The notes beneath the pieces were generated by a model. The model saw only the letters and a program-made list of their open reading frames with translations, was not told the DNA's origin and searched no databases. A program made the position numbers and the translations under genes. Of a stretch of DNA of 44,082 nt, positions 1-7,183 are shown one piece after another; positions within the stretch are counted from its first letter, which is position 1; each line of letters opens with the position of its first letter. The stretch is from a bacterium (GTDB lineage: Bacteria > Actinomycetota > Acidimicrobiia > Spongiisociales > UBA5794), in assembly GCA_024228555.1 (NCBI GenBank), contig JAAETI010000331.1:1-44082 (forward strand), read 5' to 3'.

Positions 1-54
1 ATCATCGAAGCCGTGCTTGCGGCGGCTGGCTTCCCCGAGGGAGGCGCATCATGA
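1..54 (+). CDS. C-terminal end of a probable 2Fe-2S (CoxS-like) subunit, partial
   Basis: An open frame enters from the left edge and stops at the TGA at 52-54. The 17 visible residues end IIEAVLAAAGFPEGGAS. They resemble the last helix of the small iron-sulfur subunit of molybdenum hydroxylases, where a CxCTGY segment is followed by an I(V/I)xAVxxAA helix. The TGA overlaps the ATG of the next gene (ATGA), so the two are translationally coupled, as expected for small and large subunits of one enzyme. The cysteine motifs lie outside the window, so the assignment rests on the tail sequence and the context. A CoxM-like FAD subunit is less likely. Confidence 0.55.
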   Translation: MIEAVLAAAGFPEGGAS

Positions 55-2438
55 CGACGACTTTCCCCTTTGAGGCAGAGACCAACGATGACGATCTGAA
101 GAGCGTCGGCAAGCCCGTGGTTCGGATCGATGGCCGCGACAAGATCAGCGGGGCCGCCGAGTTCGTAGACGACATCGACTTCGGCCCCGGCCTGCTTCAC
201 GCCGCCATTGTCGAAAGCCCCCACGCCTACGCCAAGATCATCTCCATTGACACGAGCGAAGCTGAGCAGGCGAAGGGCGTCGTCAAGGTGGTCACGGGAG
301 CGGACTTCCCGTACCGGTTCGGCATGTACATGGAAGACCGCTACATCTTCGCCCAGGACCACGTCCGGTTCGTCGGCGAACAGGTTGCGGGCATCATCGC
401 CAGGAGCCACCGCGCCGCCGTGCAGGCAGCCAAGCTGGTCAAGGTTGAATACGAGGTCCTGGAACCGCTACTCGATCCCAAGAAGGCTTTTGCCGACGAC
501 GCCGAACTGGTTCATCCGGACCTCGAGGACTACACGCATGTCCCATGGTTCTTCCCCAAGGCCGACACCAACATCGCCCACTGGCGCAAGATCCGCAAGG
601 GCGACACCGAAAAGGCGTTTGCCGAGGCGGACTATGTCCTGGAGGACACCTACACGGTGCCCCGCTACGCACACTGCGCAATCGAGCCGCACGTCACAGT
701 CAGCAGACTCGACCAGGCGGACCGCCTCACGGTGTGGACCGCTTCGCAGTCACCACATACGCAGCGACACTTGTTCGCTGAGGCGCTCTCTCCGCTGGGG
801 TTCACCCACAAGGACGTTCGGGTAATCACCCCGTACGTCGGCGGTGGCTTCGGCGGCAAGGCCGGTGTCTCGATGGAGATCCTCGGCGCCGCGATGGCCA
901 CCCTGGTCAAGGGTCGCCCGCTGAAGCTGCGCTGGACCCGCGAGCAGGAGTTCTACAACACCTACCAGCGACAGGGCGTTATCGCCGAGTTGAAGGTCGG
1001 CGTTCTCAACGATGGAACCATCACCGCGGTGCAGCATCGCCTGTACTGGGATGCAGGCGCCTACGTCGAATACGGCGCCAACGTCGTCAACGCGGCAGGG
1101 CTCTCGGCCACCGGGCCCTACCGGGTGCCGAACATCACCAACGACTCGCTGTGCATGTACACCAACCTGCCGCCCGGCGGCCCCTACCGCGGCTTTGGGT
1201 ATTCGGAGTTCCACTTCGGGCTCGAATCGCACATGGACCGCATCGCCGAAGCCATCGGAATGGATCCGGTCGATTTCCGTCGAAAGAACGCCATCGTCGA
1301 AGGCGACGAGCTTGCGTACGGCGCACACATGAACCCGTCCGGGCTCATCGAGGCGATCGACAAGACGGCCGCTGCAATCGACTGGGGCGTCGAGGAAGAA
1401 TCCGACAACCCCAACACCGTGATCGGCAAGGGCATAGCGCTGTTCTGGAAGGCACCGGCGATGCCGCCGAACGCCTCATCGGCTTCGTTCCTGAAGTTCA
1501 ACGAGGACGGCAGCATCAACATCACCGTGTCCGGCATGGAGCTGGGGCAGGGATACCTCACAGTCATGGCTCAGATCGCAAGTGAGATTCTCACCGTCCC
1601 GGTTGAGAAGATCCGGGTGGAGACCCCCGACACCGACCGCAACCCTTATGAGTGGCAAACGGTGGCTTCCCACGTCACGTGGAGCTCCGGGCTGGCGGTC
1701 GAGAAGGCCGCGATTGAGGCTCGGTCCAAGATCTTCGATGTCATCCATCAGGTCTACGGATACGAGGACGACTCGCTGTATCTCGAGAATGAGATGGTCA
1801 AGTGCAGGACCGACCCGGATTTCGCCAAATCCCTCAGCGATTTTGTCATCGACGGTATCCAGACCGAAGAGGGAACCTGGCGTGGAGGGCCGATCATCGC
1901 GAGCGGCAAGTTCATGCCGGAGTTCACCAACGCACTCAGCGATCCCGAGACCGGACAGGGTGGCCACCCCAATGTGCACTACACAGTTGGCGCTACAGGA
2001 GCCATCCTCGAGATCGACAAGGACACGGGACGTATCTGGGTGCGCAAGGCGGCGTTGGCGGTCGATGCGGGGCGGGCCATCAACCCCGATCTGGTCAAGG
2101 GCCAGATCGTCGGTGGCCTCGTCCAGGGTTTGGCCACAGTCCTTTACGAAGACATGCGCTTCGATGAGGGCGGCAAGATGATGAACCCCAACTTCACCGA
2201 CTACAAGATCCCGACTGCGTTCGATATCCCCGACGAGATCATCCCGATCATCATCGAGGTGCCCCAGCCGGACGGTCCATTCGGGGCCCGTGGCGTTGGT
2301 GAGCACACCATGATCGCCGCGGCTCCAGTGATCGCCAACGCGGTCTACAACGCTTTGGGAACTCGCATCAAGTCGATGCCGGTAACCCAGGAGAAGGTTG
2401 CGATGGCCAATTTAGAGAGAACAGAGTCCCAAACCTGA
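51..2438 (+). CDS. Molybdenum hydroxylase large subunit (xanthine dehydrogenase/CoxL family, not form I CODH)
   Basis: This is the 795-residue molybdopterin-cytosine-dinucleotide subunit of an aerobic hydroxylase. The family inserts water-derived oxygen into a C-H bond and passes electrons through 2Fe-2S and FAD subunits. The N-terminal ald_Xan_dh domain begins near residue 20 (GRDKISGAAEFVDD). The cofactor loop GGGFGGK is at 264-270. A YRGFG loop at 379-383 stands where form I CO dehydrogenase has AYxCSFR, so this is not a true CoxL. The catalytic Glu lies in GARGVGE (E751). Full length is normal for the family. It starts inside the stop of the preceding subunit and is followed 17 bases later by an unknown gene and a thiolase/DUF35 pair. 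That context suggests oxidation of a ring or acyl-CoA substrate, which cannot be named. Family assignment is firm; substrate is unknown. Confidence 0.9.
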   Translation: MTTTFPFEAETNDDDLKSVGKPVVRIDGRDKISGAAEFVDDIDFGPGLLHAAIVESPHAYAKIISIDTSEAEQAKGVVKVVTGADFPYRFGMYMEDRYIFAQDHVRFVGEQVAGIIARSHRAAVQAAKLVKVEYEVLEPLLDPKKAFADDAELVHPDLEDYTHVPWFFPKADTNIAHWRKIRKGDTEKAFAEADYVLEDTYTVPRYAHCAIEPHVTVSRLDQADRLTVWTASQSPHTQRHLFAEALSPLGFTHKDVRVITPYVGGGFGGKAGVSMEILGAAMATLVKGRPLKLRWTREQEFYNTYQRQGVIAELKVGVLNDGTITAVQHRLYWDAGAYVEYGANVVNAAGLSATGPYRVPNITNDSLCMYTNLPPGGPYRGFGYSEFHFGLESHMDRIAEAIGMDPVDFRRKNAIVEGDELAYGAHMNPSGLIEAIDKTAAAIDWGVEEESDNPNTVIGKGIALFWKAPAMPPNASSASFLKFNEDGSINITVSGMELGQGYLTVMAQIASEILTVPVEKIRVETPDTDRNPYEWQTVASHVTWSSGLAVEKAAIEARSKIFDVIHQVYGYEDDSLYLENEMVKCRTDPDFAKSLSDFVIDGIQTEEGTWRGGPIIASGKFMPEFTNALSDPETGQGGHPNVHYTVGATGAILEIDKDTGRIWVRKAALAVDAGRAINPDLVKGQIVGGLVQGLATVLYEDMRFDEGGKMMNPNFTDYKIPTAFDIPDEIIPIIIEVPQPDGPFGARGVGEHTMIAAAPVIANAVYNALGTRIKSMPVTQEKVAMANLERTESQT

Positions 2439-2455
2439 ATAGGAGTGGATAGCAA

Positions 2456-3214
2456 ATGTCCGTCGATCTAGAGAAGATCCTTCGGCCGGTGGAATCACCG
2501 ATGAAGCCGTACGAGCCAAAGTACATGATGCTCGCCAGCGGCGAAGCCGTTGTGGTGCGTCAGGTCTTTCGAGATGAGATCCCAGATTTGCTGAAGGCCG
2601 TCGAGCCGCTGCTGCACGTTGAGCGCGACTACTACGACGTCGTCGCAGCCCGTGTCTATGCCGAGCTACTCGGCTACTACCAATACCGGTTCCAGGATCA
2701 GTACGTGCTTGCCCTGCAGGTCGACGGTGAGCTCGCTGCCATCGTCAACGGCCGCCAGGTCACCCCAACCCTCGGCCTGTCGCTCCATACCTTGGCGCTG
2801 CGGCGGGGGCTCCGGATCGGTGCCCACGGCTTCGCAGCCAAGATGGAATACCACATCGACACGCTGGGCCACAATGAGGTCCTGGTTGTCGCCGAGTCGC
2901 CCATTGGCTTCCGGCGCTGGATGATCGAGTACAAACTCGAGAAGAGATTCCATATCCCCCACGAGCTTGGTGGAGTCCCGTCGTGGGCACTTACCAAAGA
3001 GCTCTTCGACCGGGCCCGCTCCAAGCTGGTCGTCGGTCGTCGCCCGGTTCCACCGGATCTGCTCGACAAGGCAATGGACAAGATCCTGCCCCCGTCGGAT
3101 CCGCCAACCCCGCCGCTCGATCCGCTAGCCGCCACCCGTGCGCTGTACGACCCAACCGCAACCGCGTTGGTGACCCAGCGCTGGGAGATGGAGAAAGGGG
3201 CTCAGAATGCGTGA
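2456..3214 (+). CDS. Unrecognised 252-aa protein in the molybdenum hydroxylase operon
   Basis: I do not recognise a family with certainty. The ATG at 2456 follows an AGGAG at 2441-2445, and the 3' end overlaps the thiolase gene by 8 bases, so it is an operon member. The protein is soluble, with no signal peptide or membrane segment. The middle (about residues 50-165) alternates strands and helices and contains YVLALQVDGELAAIVNGR followed by a helix-rich half, loosely like an acetyltransferase (GNAT-type) fold. There is no clear acetyl-CoA loop. The C-terminus is proline-rich (PPSDPPTPPLDP). Position between the hydroxylase and the thiolase suggests a dedicated accessory or tailoring role in the same pathway. 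That is inference only. Confidence 0.85.
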   Translation: MSVDLEKILRPVESPMKPYEPKYMMLASGEAVVVRQVFRDEIPDLLKAVEPLLHVERDYYDVVAARVYAELLGYYQYRFQDQYVLALQVDGELAAIVNGRQVTPTLGLSLHTLALRRGLRIGAHGFAAKMEYHIDTLGHNEVLVVAESPIGFRRWMIEYKLEKRFHIPHELGGVPSWALTKELFDRARSKLVVGRRPVPPDLLDKAMDKILPPSDPPTPPLDPLAATRALYDPTATALVTQRWEMEKGAQNA

Positions 3215-4382
3215 CGTATACGTAGCCGGTATTGGTATCACCACCTTCACCCGGCTCGAATACCCGCTGTCTGAGATTGCGTCCTACGCATCGATGATGG
3301 CACTCAAAGATGCAGGCGTCACTGAGGTCGATCAGCTGTATGTCGCCAATATGGGCGCACCGCGGGTCAATCATCAGACTGCACTAGCCAGTGCGGTCGC
3401 CGACAGCCTGAGCCTGCTTCCGGCAGGTGCTGCCGCTATCGAGAACGGCCCCGCCTCTGGTGCGGCCGCAATCAAGGCCGGCTTCCAGGCAGTGGCGTCG
3501 GGCATGGACGATGTTGTTCTGGTGGCAGGCGTGGAGAGGATGCGAGAGGTGAACAACCTCGAAGCAACCGACTTCGTCGCCACGCTCACCCACCCGTTGA
3601 CCGAGTACATCTACGGCGTGACGCTTCCGGCGCATGCTGCGATGTTCACTCGTCTCTATATGGAGAAGTACGGCGTCACAGAGCGTCATCTCGCCATGGT
3701 TGGTGTGAAGAATCAGAACGCCGCTCTCAACAACGAGTGGGCGCATCTGCAGCAGGAGATCTCGATGGAAGGCATCCTCGACTCCCCTGAAGCGATGACC
3801 AACAACCCGTATGTTGCTGAGCCCCTGCGGTTCTTCGATGCGTGCCCCGTCTCCGACGGCGGCGCCGCCATCATCCTCGTCTCGGAAGAGAAGGCCAAGG
3901 AGTTGGGCCGCCCGATGATCCGCCTCAGCGGTATCGGGCAAGCCACCGACACCCATGCGGTGTTTGAGCGTGAGGAACCGACCGATCTGCTGGCAGTCCG
4001 CAAGGCTGCCAAAGACGCGTTCGAGATGTCAGGCCTCACCCCCGAGGACATCGACGTTGCGGAACTGCACGATGCCTTCACGATCCTCGAGATCGCCGAG
4101 AGCGAAGAGGTCGGCTTCTTCCCCAAGGGCGAAGGTCATACCGCCCTGGAGAAGGGCGAGACGGCGCTCGGCGGCAAGATACCGATCAACGTGGGCGGCG
4201 GTCTCAAAGGCCGTGGTCACCCCGTCGGAGCGACCGGTGTTGCCCAGGCGTGGGAGATCGTTACCCAGTTGCGTGGAGACGGCGGCAAGCGACAGGTTGA
4301 GGGCGCCAAGACCGGCCTCTCCTTGAACTTCGGCGGATTCGGCAACAACGTTGTTTGTCTCACATATGTGAGGGAGGACTAA
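3207..4382 (+). CDS. Thiolase-superfamily protein lacking the nucleophilic cysteine
   Basis: The 391-residue protein has the SCP2/archaeal thiolase layout. HDAFT holds the catalytic His (H288) and GRGHPVGATG holds the second His (H338). The C-terminal LNFGGFGNN replaces the CxG motif, as is common in SCP2-type members. At the nucleophile position, normally ACASG, the sequence reads ENGPASG, so Pro82 replaces the Cys (codon CCC at 3450-3452). A canonical Claisen thiolase is therefore unlikely. Its 1-base overlap (TAATG) with a DUF35 gene matches two-component thiolase/DUF35 pairs. One such pair is BbsAB in toluene degradation; another is the Ltp2-ChsH2 retro-aldolase, in which the thiolase fold does aldol chemistry. 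A retro-aldolase or lyase role is my inference. GTG, in SYTHG-like starts further in, was not preferred because ATG at 3207 overlaps the preceding gene. Confidence 0.88.
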   Translation: MRDVYVAGIGITTFTRLEYPLSEIASYASMMALKDAGVTEVDQLYVANMGAPRVNHQTALASAVADSLSLLPAGAAAIENGPASGAAAIKAGFQAVASGMDDVVLVAGVERMREVNNLEATDFVATLTHPLTEYIYGVTLPAHAAMFTRLYMEKYGVTERHLAMVGVKNQNAALNNEWAHLQQEISMEGILDSPEAMTNNPYVAEPLRFFDACPVSDGGAAIILVSEEKAKELGRPMIRLSGIGQATDTHAVFEREEPTDLLAVRKAAKDAFEMSGLTPEDIDVAELHDAFTILEIAESEEVGFFPKGEGHTALEKGETALGGKIPINVGGGLKGRGHPVGATGVAQAWEIVTQLRGDGGKRQVEGAKTGLSLNFGGFGNNVVCLTYVRED

Positions 4383-4729
4383 TGGCACGCGAGATCTATG
4401 CGTACAAGTGCCGTCTGTGCGGAACGATGCACTACCCGTTCCGTATGGTTTGCAAGGGCTGCAAGCAGAACGACTTCTTCGAGTTCGACACTGTGCCACT
4501 ACCCAAGAGCGGCAAGCTGCTGACCTTCACCAGGGTCTACAACCTTCCGGCTCAGTACGAGGTGGCTACCCTTGGGCTCGGCATTGTTGAGCTGGAGAAC
4601 GGTATGCGGATGTTGGGTCAACTGGAGATTGATGAACCAACGATCGGCATGGCTGTGAAAGGCTCGGTCGAGGTAGTCCGCAAGGAGACCTACGACGACT
4701 ACTACGGGATGGTGTTCACCGCAGCATGA
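4382..4729 (+). CDS. DUF35 zinc-ribbon/OB-fold partner of the thiolase-like protein
   Basis: This small 115-aa protein has an N-terminal rubredoxin-like zinc ribbon (C10, C13, C24, C27) followed by an OB-fold domain from about residue 45 (GKLLTFTRVYNLP). That is the standard DUF35 layout. Such proteins form obligate complexes with thiolase-like enzymes and help bind acyl-CoA. The start ATG shares its first base with the thiolase TAA stop, and GGGAGGA lies just upstream, so translation is coupled. A longer reading from 4355 is rejected because it runs through the thiolase end. Partnership with the upstream Cys-less thiolase is strongly suggested by the overlap. Confidence 0.9.
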   Translation: MAREIYAYKCRLCGTMHYPFRMVCKGCKQNDFFEFDTVPLPKSGKLLTFTRVYNLPAQYEVATLGLGIVELENGMRMLGQLEIDEPTIGMAVKGSVEVVRKETYDDYYGMVFTAA

Positions 4730-4795
4730 CCCAACCCAGCGCCGAAAAAAGGCATCCAGCTGCGGTCGAAGGCTGGGGAGGGACAGACAGTCCGC

Positions 4796-4921
4796 CTCAC
4801 CGGCAGCCATCCGACGGTGCAAAAGAGACGACAACTCAGGTCCGGGCTGAATACGACGACCGGGTCACAAACCTGATGGGCAACTATGAGAGCCACTCCG
4901 CAAGGGGTGGCTCTCGTTTTT
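4796..4921 (+). promoter_or_regulatory. Structured leader upstream of the uracil permease gene
   Basis: The 211 bases between the DUF35 stop and the permease start hold no convincing gene but several pairings. CACCG/CGGTG encloses about 4798-4818. An outer stem TCAGGT/ACCTGA (4836-4841 with 4871-4876) encloses an inner CCGG/CCGG (4842-4845 with 4860-4863). A terminator hairpin at 4888-4921 ends five bases before the permease Shine-Dalgarno. This order suggests transcription attenuation or a riboswitch-like leader. I could not match it to a known class: no PyrR-binding loop, purine-riboswitch core or TPP core was found. Confidence 0.45.
4888..4921 (+). terminator. Intrinsic terminator hairpin (possible attenuator)
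   Basis: GAGAGCCACTCC (4888-4899) pairs with GGGGTGGCTCTC (4904-4915) around a GCAA loop with one G-T pair. G and then five T follow at 4917-4921. It lies 159 bases after the DUF35 stop and directly before the permease ribosome binding site. It may end the upstream operon, attenuate the permease gene, or both. Confidence 0.8.
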
Positions 4922-4940
4922 CATGGGAGAGGAAGAGCAA

Positions 4941-6185
4941 ATGGAACTGACAATGCAAAAGAAGGTCGTGCTGGGTCTCCAGCACACCATCGCCATGTTC
5001 GGGGCAACGGTACTTGTACCGCTGCTTACGGGCCTGAATCCGTCTGTCGCGCTACTTGCGGCAGGCGTTGGGACGCTTCTGTTCCACCTTGTTACAAAGC
5101 AAATGGTCCCGGTCTTCCTGGGCTCGTCGTTTGCGTTTATCCCGCCGATCGTATTGAGCGTCGAGCGTGGCTATTCGTGGGCGTCGATTGGCGCAGGCAT
5201 TGTGGGCGCTGCGGTGCTCTACATTGCGATGTCGATCATCGTCACGTTTGTCGGGTCCGACGTCATCCGCCGGATCTTCCCGCCGATCGTCACCGGTCCG
5301 GTCATCGTTGTCATTGGCATCACGCTGGCACCGGTCGCGATTGGGATGGCTGAAGGTGAATGGTGGCTCGCCATCGTCACATTGGTCGCAACACTGGTTG
5401 CTGCGATCTTCTTCAGGGGCCTGTTCAAGATGCTGCCAATCCTCACTGGTGCGATCGTCGGCTATCTCTCAGCTGTGCTGTTCTACAGCGAGTTCTCGTT
5501 CGACGCAGTCGGTGAAGCGAGCTGGGTTGGCTGGCCGGAGATGACCTGGGGTCTCGGAGACGTGCAGTGGGCGGCCATTGCGTTGATCGCTCCAATCGCC
5601 TTTGTCACGATGATCGAGCACGTCGGCGACATCCTGGCCAACGGCCGTGTTGTCGGGAAGGACTTCTTCGACGAGCCCGGCCTCAACCGCACTCTTCTCG
5701 GTGACGGTGTTGCCACACTGTTTGCCGGTCTGGTCGGCGGTCCGCCGAACACGACATACTCAGAGAACACTGGTGTCCTGGCCGTAACCAAGGTCTATGA
5801 CCCATTCATCATCCGCATCGGTGCCGTGTTTGCCATCTTCTTGGGTCTTGTCCCGAAGCTGGCAGCCATCCTGCGCACCGTCCCGGTCCCCGTCCTCGGT
5901 GGTCTCTCTATCGTGCTCTTCGGCATGATCGCCTCGGTCGGTATGCGGACGCTGGTTGAGGGCGAGGTTGACTTCAAGAAGAGTCGCAACATGATCGTTG
6001 TCGGCCTCATCTTGGTGTTCGGTCTTGGCGTCAGCGGGCTGTCGTCACCGCTCGCCATCGGCGACGTGGCCATCTCTGGTCTCGCACTCGCAGCGGTCAT
6101 CGGTGTGGTTGCAAACCTCATCCTCCCGATAGATACTGAAGAGGCGGAGATCGTGATGCCTTCGGAGAAGAAGTCCGCCCAATAG
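4941..6185 (+). CDS. Uracil/xanthine permease, NCS2 family (UraA-like)
   Basis: This 414-residue integral membrane nucleobase:cation symporter has about 12-14 hydrophobic segments. The N-terminal GLQHTIAMFGATVLVP holds the family QH motif. PNTTYSENTGVLAVTKV resembles the TTYGEN motif of UraA more than the xanthine group, so uracil is the likelier substrate. ATG at 4941 is chosen over 4923 because GGAGAGGAAG (4926-4935) is a Shine-Dalgarno for 4941 and would fall inside the longer reading. The gene is preceded by a structured leader with a terminator and followed by its own terminator at 6223. It is probably a separate transcription unit from the molybdenum hydroxylase operon, although a functional link (nucleobase or N-heterocycle uptake) is possible. 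Confidence 0.93.
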   Translation: MELTMQKKVVLGLQHTIAMFGATVLVPLLTGLNPSVALLAAGVGTLLFHLVTKQMVPVFLGSSFAFIPPIVLSVERGYSWASIGAGIVGAAVLYIAMSIIVTFVGSDVIRRIFPPIVTGPVIVVIGITLAPVAIGMAEGEWWLAIVTLVATLVAAIFFRGLFKMLPILTGAIVGYLSAVLFYSEFSFDAVGEASWVGWPEMTWGLGDVQWAAIALIAPIAFVTMIEHVGDILANGRVVGKDFFDEPGLNRTLLGDGVATLFAGLVGGPPNTTYSENTGVLAVTKVYDPFIIRIGAVFAIFLGLVPKLAAILRTVPVPVLGGLSIVLFGMIASVGMRTLVEGEVDFKKSRNMIVVGLILVFGLGVSGLSSPLAIGDVAISGLALAAVIGVVANLILPIDTEEAEIVMPSEKKSAQ

Positions 6186-6222
6186 GGACAAATTCTCCAG
6201 GAACGCCCATCCAACTGGGCCT

Positions 6223-6263
6223 GAGGAGCCGGGTTCCCTGCGGGGAACCCGGCTCTCCTCTTT
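6223..6263 (+). terminator. Intrinsic terminator after the permease gene
   Basis: GAGGAGCCGGGTTCCC (6223-6238) pairs with a near-perfect complement ending at 6260, with a two-base bulge, around a short TGCG loop. TTT follows. It lies 38 bases after the permease stop. Confidence 0.75.
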
Positions 6264-6270
6264 GCCGATT

Positions 6271-6323
6271 CTGTTCTTGCGTACGCCGGCGCGGTACTAG
6301 TCAAAGAATCTACGCAAGAACAG
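6271..6323 (+). repeat. 53-bp palindromic intergenic repeat, copy 1
   Basis: Perfect 13-bp arms CTGTTCTTGCGTA (6271-6283) and TACGCAAGAACAG (6311-6323) enclose a 27-base spacer beginning CGCCGGCGCG. The same architecture occurs at 7221-7273, inverted, and a shorter relative at 24464. There is no T tract, so it is not a simple terminator. Confidence 0.8.
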
Positions 6324-6348
6324 GGGAACTCGGCAGAGCCGAGTTCCC
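6324..6348 (-). terminator. Hairpin directly after the EamA gene stop
   Basis: GGGAACTCGGC (6324-6334) and GCCGAGTTCCC (6338-6348) form a perfect 11-bp stem with a 3-base loop. It abuts the stop codon of the minus-strand EamA gene (6350-6352). It lacks a T-rich tail on either strand, so it may stabilise the mRNA end rather than terminate strongly. Confidence 0.5.
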
Positions 6349-6349
6349 G

Positions 6350-7183
6350 TCAGCCGCCCGCGACAAGCGCGACGGCCACCAGGGCAAGTACCAACCCGAT
6401 GCGACGTTGTGGGGTGAGGCGTTCGCCAAGGACAAGCCATGCCAGCAGGACGGTGGCGGCAGGGAACATCGCGGCGATCACCGAAACCACTGCGAGCGAG
6501 CCCTCTGTGGTCGCCAATACGAACATCCCGTTGCCCAAAGTGACGAGCACCCCGGCACCGATGCTCGGCGGCATGGCCTCACGATTCGGCAGGAGTGGGC
6601 CCGGCACCCGGGCAGCCACGATCAACATCACCATTGATCCGGCCACGCGCGCCGGCAGCAGCGACCAGATACCCGACGCATCGGCAGCCAAACTCAGGAA
6701 GATCAGCAATCCGCCAAAACCGATCCCGGCGAGCAGTCCATATCTCACACCGACCGCAACGTTGTCGGCGTCGTGCAGATGGCCACCACTGCTGATAGTC
6801 CAGATCGCGATCAAGCCGAGCACAATGCCGCCAAGCACAATGGCCGTCGGCATGTCGCCACGAACGATCTGCCAGAGCACCGGCCACACTGCAGCACCCA
6901 CCGCCGCGATCGGCGACACGACTGCGATGCTGCTCTTCGCAAAGCCGGAGTAAAGGGCAACAACCGCCATCGCCCCGCTCAATCCTGCGATCGATCCCCA
7001 AACGATGGTCGATTGGCTGAGGCTGCCGCCGAACATCGGACCCAGGATCAACACAGTGGCGACGCCGGCAAGGTGGTTGACAAGAACGACGGGCATCACC
7101 CGATCACGCCGACTGGCTACGCCTCCGAGAAAGTCACCGGACCCGGAGAAAGTGGCAGCAGCAAGAGCGAGAAGAACAGCCAT
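6350..7183 (-). CDS. EamA/DMT-superfamily transporter
   Basis: This 277-residue membrane protein has about ten hydrophobic segments in two internally similar halves, the usual 10-TMS drug/metabolite transporter layout. The second half ends with a family-typical pattern, FPAATVLLAWLVLGERLTPQ. The substrate cannot be inferred. The start at 7183 has no clear Shine-Dalgarno, so the transcript may be leaderless or weakly translated. The gene stands alone and is bracketed by two inverted copies of a 53-bp palindromic repeat (6271-6323 and 7221-7273). Confidence 0.88.
   Translation of the reverse strand: MAVLLALAAATFSGSGDFLGGVASRRDRVMPVVLVNHLAGVATVLILGPMFGGSLSQSTIVWGSIAGLSGAMAVVALYSGFAKSSIAVVSPIAAVGAAVWPVLWQIVRGDMPTAIVLGGIVLGLIAIWTISSGGHLHDADNVAVGVRYGLLAGIGFGGLLIFLSLAADASGIWSLLPARVAGSMVMLIVAARVPGPLLPNREAMPPSIGAGVLVTLGNGMFVLATTEGSLAVVSVIAAMFPAATVLLAWLVLGERLTPQRRIGLVLALVAVALVAGG

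Follow-up and report, generated by a model that had tools for sequence, protein, structure and literature searches.

A covarying three-hairpin RNA element crossed by an open reading frame upstream of UraA-type permease genes in uncultured actinobacteria

A conserved, covarying structured RNA element that reaches the gathering score of no Rfam family was identified between a gene for an OB-fold protein and a gene for a UraA-type NCS2 permease in the window, which is the whole 44,082-nucleotide stretch of DNA that was analysed (contig C331 of genome G000). The hairpins of the element, their covariation, the overlaps between reading frames and the open frame that runs through the hairpins were established from the sequence. 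We tentatively read the element as an intercistronic translation-gated attenuator, a known general kind of control in what would be a new form, like that of Escherichia coli rph-pyrE. More doubtful is a broader reading in which it would be a portable uptake gate sensing translation continuity, so that a nucleobase transporter would be made only while ribosomes stream off a catabolic operon; the frame of such a gate would stay open through three hairpins despite a hardly conserved peptide, and either an NCS2 permease or an ABC transporter could lie downstream.

Gene context and hairpins in the window

A series of genes on the + strand (51-6185) encodes a molybdenum hydroxylase large subunit, a protein without a family match, a thiolase, the OB-fold protein and the permease. 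Genes upstream in the window overlap one another or lie at most 17 nt apart, and the gap between the OB-fold and permease genes is 211 nt and contains hairpins P1, P2 and P3 (Table 1). The OB-fold protein scored 33.5 bits against Pfam PF01796 (cut-off 27.1, frame taken from 4355). The permease scored 303 bits against PF00860 and was above the cut-off of the NCBIfam ncs2 model and below that of the uracil permease equivalog. In the PDB it matched uracil permease chains along almost its whole length (E 4.5e-80), while its matches to uric acid-xanthine permease chains were partial (E 3e-15 to 2e-17). Six of its seven named relatives were from Acidimicrobiia or Acidimicrobiaceae and one was labelled Actinomycetes. 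The sole promoter-like match within 4200-6400 was inside the permease gene and none was found in the OB-fold-permease gap. Two further palindromes lie beyond the permease: a GC-rich hairpin just 3' of its stop (6220-6262, by eye), likely the operon terminator, and an 11-bp terminator-like palindrome on the - strand (6324-6348) between the permease gene and a convergent EamA-type gene.

Table 1 Features of the OB-fold-permease region in the window
Feature	Position	Strand	Details
OB-fold (ChsH2_C / DUF35-type) protein gene	4382..4729	+	PF01796 and gene-like composition
Relay ORF	4726..4950	+	74 codons; ATG within OB-fold stop (ATGA); crosses P1, P2 and P3
P1 counterpart	4835..4861	+	GGUC 4839-4842 / GACC 4858-4861
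Nested stem	4837..4875	+	minimum-energy fold of window alone; competes with P2
P2	4861..4875	+	CGGGU - CACAA - ACCUG, 5-nt loop
P3, terminator-like	4888..4915	+	12 bp
U-tract after P3	4917..4921	+	one G intervening
Shine-Dalgarno GGGAGAGG	4925..4932	+	three bases (4922-4924) after U-tract
UraA-type NCS2 permease gene	4941..6185	+	ATG start 4941; frame also opens at 4923

The initial annotation of this DNA described nested stems and a terminator-like hairpin ahead of the permease, and RNA folding of 4796-4921 reproduced both, the former as CAGGU 4837-4841 / ACCUG 4871-4875 enclosing CCGG 4842-4845 / CCGG 4860-4863 and the latter as the 12-bp hairpin followed by G and TTTTT. It had placed the terminator end five bases before the Shine-Dalgarno (SD) sequence; a hairpin and U-run do stand at the SD, with a spacing of three bases. 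The folded stretch was more stable than dinucleotide shuffles (z -2.25; 4 of 200 shuffles as good), while the nested stem by itself was ordinary (z -0.73; 49 of 200). The window by itself folds at minimum energy into the enclosing stem, whereas the arrangement common to relatives is P1-P2-P3. P1 of the window, which was read by eye and where the window row is gapped in the alignment of leaders (A1, below), is short and its 3' arm has one base in common with P2. The segment 4871-4875 pairs with either 4837-4841 or 4861-4865, the latter by eye.

The terminator-like site at 4886-4917 was one of five in 4200-6400 compared with 1.6 expected. P3 with its TTTTT had a d'Aubenton-type score of 34.3, that of a good intrinsic terminator, and scores for P3 in the other 13 loci were -17.4 to +8.8 (seven just above 0, six below). 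What is kept in 14 of 14 loci is a strong hairpin directly before the SD, and the U-tract is poorly kept; since it is weak outside the window, P3 may have become a strong terminator only there and may elsewhere serve processing, stability or stoichiometry. The distance from the U-tract to the permease ATG is only 19 nt. The GAGAGG of the SD was invariant across the 13 aligned loci. Pairing of the SD with the 3' arm of P3 (GAGAG with CUCUC), which would sequester the SD, was also considered; 98.5% of cells pair and shuffles were identical because the SD never varies, and the comparison neither supports nor refutes it.

Conservation, covariation and distribution

Searching 138 genomes of the order for the permease returned 29 genomes at E 1e-90, and the same 29 were returned at 1e-100 from 395 genomes sampled from the class. 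The OB-fold protein was found in 28 of the 138. The OB-fold gene and a transporter gene were adjacent in 15 genomes, including G066 with a different transporter, and the element was present in 14 of these 15 loci; the locus without it (G023) has a gap of merely 50 nt. Alignment A1 comprised 13 leaders, G066 being found later and left out, and these aligned nearly gap-free except for the window and G003 in P1.

RNAalifold identified the three hairpins P1, P2 and P3 from the 13 leaders. Pairing was seen in 92.2% of 306 cells compared with 84.1% when shuffled, changes on both sides of a pair occurred at 14 of 24 pairs (7.4 shuffled) with some in each helix, and the covariation score was 0.374 compared with 0.236 shuffled (0 of 500 reached 0.374) and at most 0.177 for slid controls. 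Shuffles were made for the whole structure and not per helix, the loci are related, and the helices were picked on the same alignment, which gives them an advantage over slid versions. Further pair types were unremarkable (30 compared with 28.5; 127 of 500 shuffles reached 30). By helix, 81.2% of cells were paired in P1 with both-sided changes at all seven pairs, 95.4% in P2 (two of five pairs) and 96.8% in P3 (five of twelve pairs). Conservation and covariation across permease leaders, whose absence the initial annotation had named as evidence against a controlled leader, were thus both present. Nineteen columns of A1 were invariant, two in the P2 stem, nine in P3 and eight in or beside the SD, and the only unpaired columns that were nearly invariant were two adenines between P2 and P3. 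The P1 and P2 loops were variable and unpaired positions poorly conserved.

A covariance model was run on the 395 genomes of the class and matched 14 genomes at E <=4e-15, with the next match at 1.4e-6. Thirteen of these matches hold by construction, while that in G066 is an independent recovery because this locus was outside the training set. Every one of the 14 sits behind an OB-fold gene. Some match at or below 0.01 occurred in 49 genomes, many being a P3-like hairpin alone, and ten weak matches from E 1e-6 on, inspected by eye, looked like simple terminators or unrelated sequence. Repeated or mobile DNA was rejected as an explanation, as there was one strong place per genome and second matches were mostly the reverse strand of P3. 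In a permease tree read without support values, the permease and element of G096 (L030 / L108) cluster with those of the window's genus although this genome is filed under a different family, and this placement suggests either transfer or a misbinned contig.

At gathering score, Rfam 15 gave no match in the window or in 16 related loci, in agreement with the initial annotation, which had recognised no PyrR, purine or TPP class. Matches at E up to 10 were to microRNA, snoRNA and L31 leader families only, all far below thresholds. The L31-Corynebacteriaceae leader (RF03129), the one cis-regulatory family of the three, had a weak local likeness at 4834-4880 of 14.9 bits compared with a gathering score of 36 (E 1.6), which is chance level. 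No highly conserved unpaired core of the kind found in small-molecule riboswitch aptamers was seen in the 13 loci of A1, and no codon run common to the 13 translated stretches, as in an amino-acid leader-peptide attenuator, was seen by eye. The poorly conserved unpaired positions of P1 and P2 are evidence against a ligand aptamer and against the ligand-controlled termination suggested by the initial annotation. A limited literature search did not find the element in print.

An open frame through the hairpins

The stretch had been called a leader, but it is intercistronic and carries an open reading frame. The stop TGA of the OB-fold gene shares ATGA with the start of the relay ORF (GCATGA), and the TGA of the relay ORF falls 10 nt into the permease gene. 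In 13 of the 14 loci, ORFs overlapping at ATGA follow one another without a break from the OB-fold stop past P3 to an end at -9 to +10 relative to the transporter start, so that an upstream frame reaches or crosses the hairpin as in pyrE-type attenuators. A second ATGA at about -119 bridges a frame break in G063, G064, G065 and G066, and G003 uses a different frame that ends exactly before the ATG. The exception, G096, is without the ATGA overlap; an ORF could start at several sites inside the gap, of which the first follows a G-rich SD-like stretch, and would end at -11.

Counted in frames set by the permease start, the gaps of 13 loci contained 24, 3 and 28 stops, and the depletion was seen in both halves (9/1/14 upstream of P1 and 15/2/14 from P1 onward). 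Nine of the 13 gap lengths equal 1 modulo 3 (193, 199, 202, 202, 205, 211, 217, 217 and 226), and three of the four that do not (206, 213, 216 and 216) are second-ATGA loci. When single loci were shuffled, 18-75% of shuffles kept an open frame (12 loci), which is unimpressive, so the case for the open frame rests on the whole set. Neutral simulation on the leader tree gave a mean of 22.4 stops and 2.8 of 13 loci open, compared with three stops and ten open loci observed; at least ten open loci occurred in none of 1500 runs and in 1.2% with halved branch lengths. The simulation required the window to be open and the root to have no more than one stop, and it had no indels and ignored the slower change of P3.

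The relay ORF did not resemble the genes around it. Its codon usage score was -0.22 per codon, close to the other two frames (-0.25 and -0.29), while 25 pieces of the window's genes scored +0.19 to +0.49 (mean +0.34), and GC by codon position was also not gene-like. Mismatches by codon position were.19/.24/.25 over nine related pairs that share members, and in P1-P2 the second position was highest (.31). A conventional small protein was ruled out as the main reading by codon composition and codon-position mismatches. With weak amino-acid selection and codon usage that is not gene-like, it is the open frame from which translation is inferred, and it seems that the peptide is unimportant and that the openness of the frame is what is kept. 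A RHPATV-like stretch at window 4750-4770 (relay codons 9-14) occurs in several relatives with variable surroundings.

Transporter exchange and pathway context

The element lies behind the same OB-fold gene in G066 (L105 529-5546), where the permease is replaced by genes for a BMP-type substrate-binding lipoprotein, an ABC ATPase, two ABC permeases and a cytidine/adenosine deaminase-type deaminase; every listed NCBIfam match of these genes was below its cut-off. As the element is kept before an ABC transporter, its presence does not depend on the sequence of the permease gene itself. Nor is it a general end of the OB-fold gene, for it was absent from 13 OB-fold loci without an adjacent permease except for one partial model match of 11 bits; downstream genes were scanned in 11 of these loci and identified in two, so some of the 13 may have another transporter there.

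Ring-opening amidohydrolases of the AtzD/barbiturase family (PF09663) were present in 17 of 70 genomes and in none of 14 controls. Within the 70-genome set they were found in 17 of 19 OB-fold genomes (not G003 or G045) and in none of the 51 others. The amidohydrolase gene adjoins the OB-fold gene in G105 (L069 1939-3030), where its product is above the cut-offs for both ring-opening amidohydrolase and cyanuric acid amidohydrolase, and in the window's genome it is on another contig (G000:C700:1535-2611). Oxidative pyrimidine degradation goes via barbiturate. The amidohydrolase and the molybdenum hydroxylase fit this route, but judged by the family name cyanuric acid is an equally possible substrate, and the pathway suggested is a ring-cleaving one for either pyrimidines or s-triazines.

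Other permeases of the order

Nine of 14 other scored permeases (f3, f4 and f8, with different upstream regions) had a terminator-like hairpin 22-28 nt before the start with scores of 6 to 47, while five f2 permeases had none at the SD and the f5 region was masked with N. A small ATG ORF is located near a TAnnnT-like box (by eye) at these nine loci; it stops at the hairpin stem in five (MGTTTCIG-like or MINSSNVQ) and crosses the hairpin in four (29 codons in both f8 loci, 22 in G059 and 23 in G045). These ORFs were chosen by hand, some of the loci have others, and the promoters are guesses. The hairpin would stand between the gene's own promoter and the SD and seems hardly able to serve another gene. 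A sensor shared with the f3, f4 and f8 leaders was rejected since the leader sequences differ, and the covariance model, applied to 13 of 15 such permease loci, weakly matched the leader in three (L031, L034 and L044; 15-16 bits). In five loci (L032, L033, L038, L042 and L043), a TAnnnT-like box upstream of the permease is followed by a 5' hairpin, CGATGGGTACTACTACCTGTATCG, that hardly differs among them. This hairpin contains an 8-codon MGTTTCIG-like ORF, which in four of these loci stops at the terminator stem, and it is a candidate second leader family.

Discussion

Under translation-gated attenuation the transcript of the molybdenum hydroxylase, thiolase and OB-fold genes would continue into the gap as a single transcript. 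Ribosomes finishing the OB-fold gene would restart at the ATGA, translate the gap and melt P1 to P3, and would then terminate 10 nt into the permease gene and reinitiate at that point. With ribosomes close behind RNA polymerase P3 would be kept open and the permease transcribed and translated, while a slow or halted relay would let P3 form and the U-tract of the window would end transcription before the permease. The benefit would be that uptake is linked to the flow of a catabolic operon. No U-rich pause stretch was seen by eye upstream of P3 in the window, so sensing of UTP is not claimed. In favour of the attenuator are the ATGA chain in 13 of 14 loci, the stop depletion, the covariation, the single-site distribution, the retention of the element when the transporter is exchanged, and the nine other permeases with a hairpin before the start that is reached by a small ORF at each. 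Against it are the weak U-tract in relatives, the weak amino-acid selection and non-gene-like codons of the relay ORF, the relatedness of the loci and the locus that lacks the element.

The weak U-tract in the 13 relatives makes a processing or stoichiometry element the main rival. P3 would then be a constitutive partial terminator or a processing or stabilising hairpin in one operon that sets the transporter lower than the enzymes, with P1 and P2 as extra stability hairpins and the open frame as ordinary operon packing. We regard this as somewhat unlikely: it agrees with a P3 that is strong before the SD in all 14 loci while the U-tract is not kept, with the varying loops of P1 and P2 and with the close packing of the window's upstream genes, yet stop depletion without gene-like codons and the second ATGA suggest that the frame matters, and a plain hairpin would require neither an open frame nor a second ATGA. 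The initial annotation's alternative of simply a terminator close to the next gene may hold for the window alone, but leaves the covariation, the open frame and the retention before a different transporter unexplained. In its strictest form, where P3 is merely the 3' terminator of the upstream operon and the permease is expressed from its own downstream start, it is highly improbable; the window hairpin does score as a good terminator, but only 19 nt separate the U-tract from the permease ATG, the gap has no promoter-like match, and OB-fold loci without an adjacent permease lack the element (13 loci, one 11-bit partial match).

Binding of a metabolite or regulator to P1-P2, which would switch P3, was prompted by covarying helices upstream of a terminator-like hairpin and by the two alternative partners of 4871-4875 in the window. 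We consider such a ligand- or protein-binding leader unlikely given the few conserved unpaired positions, the lack of Rfam matches at gathering score with three weak ones at chance level, and the one strong site per genome; if the relay ORF is translated, ribosomes would moreover cover the stretch. A fast-evolving small-protein gene with secondary hairpins would account for the RHPATV-like stretch near the N-terminus in several relatives and a frame that is open in most, but is very unlikely: neither codon usage nor GC by position is gene-like, the codon positions differ little in how much they change, and the chain consists of two ORFs in four loci.

Attenuation gated by translation would have several counterparts. 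In the E. coli pyrBI leader an ORF runs through the attenuator hairpin and starts near the operon's own 5' end; the window has the same arrangement of ORF and hairpin, but its ORF is coupled to a preceding gene. Closer is E. coli rph-pyrE, a case of UTP-modulated operon polarity. According to passages of PMC2784333, which cites Bonekamp 1984 and Jensen 1993, pyrE expression is considered to depend on where the rph stop lies with respect to the attenuator, and the expected increase in pyrE was absent from expression data of two deletion strains. The likeness between the two is an intercistronic hairpin, in the window a putative attenuator, with a pyrimidine-related gene downstream. In the window, however, the hairpin is crossed by a separate small ORF rather than by the end of the enzyme gene, and the element adds two covarying hairpins, precedes a transporter gene and has no U-rich pause stretch by eye. 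Among mycobacterial systems, passages of PMC11260477 describe ppe2, with essential uORF translation, termination-reinitiation and B12 riboswitch control, and of PMC13236596 describe ilvB1, where a small ORF is proposed to sense amino acids via regulatory codons. As described in those passages, a translated small ORF upstream decides expression of the next gene, as that of the window would if translated; neither a B12 riboswitch nor regulatory codons were seen in the window's element.

The element adds a covarying RNA that matches no Rfam family at gathering score. Should the attenuator reading hold, translation would serve as antitermination within an operon in these uncultured actinobacteria, a conserved case in which selection keeps a frame for its openness and not for its product, and small ORFs without gene-like codons could then be neither genes nor noise. 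A new transporter could likewise inherit control by its placement behind an existing element.
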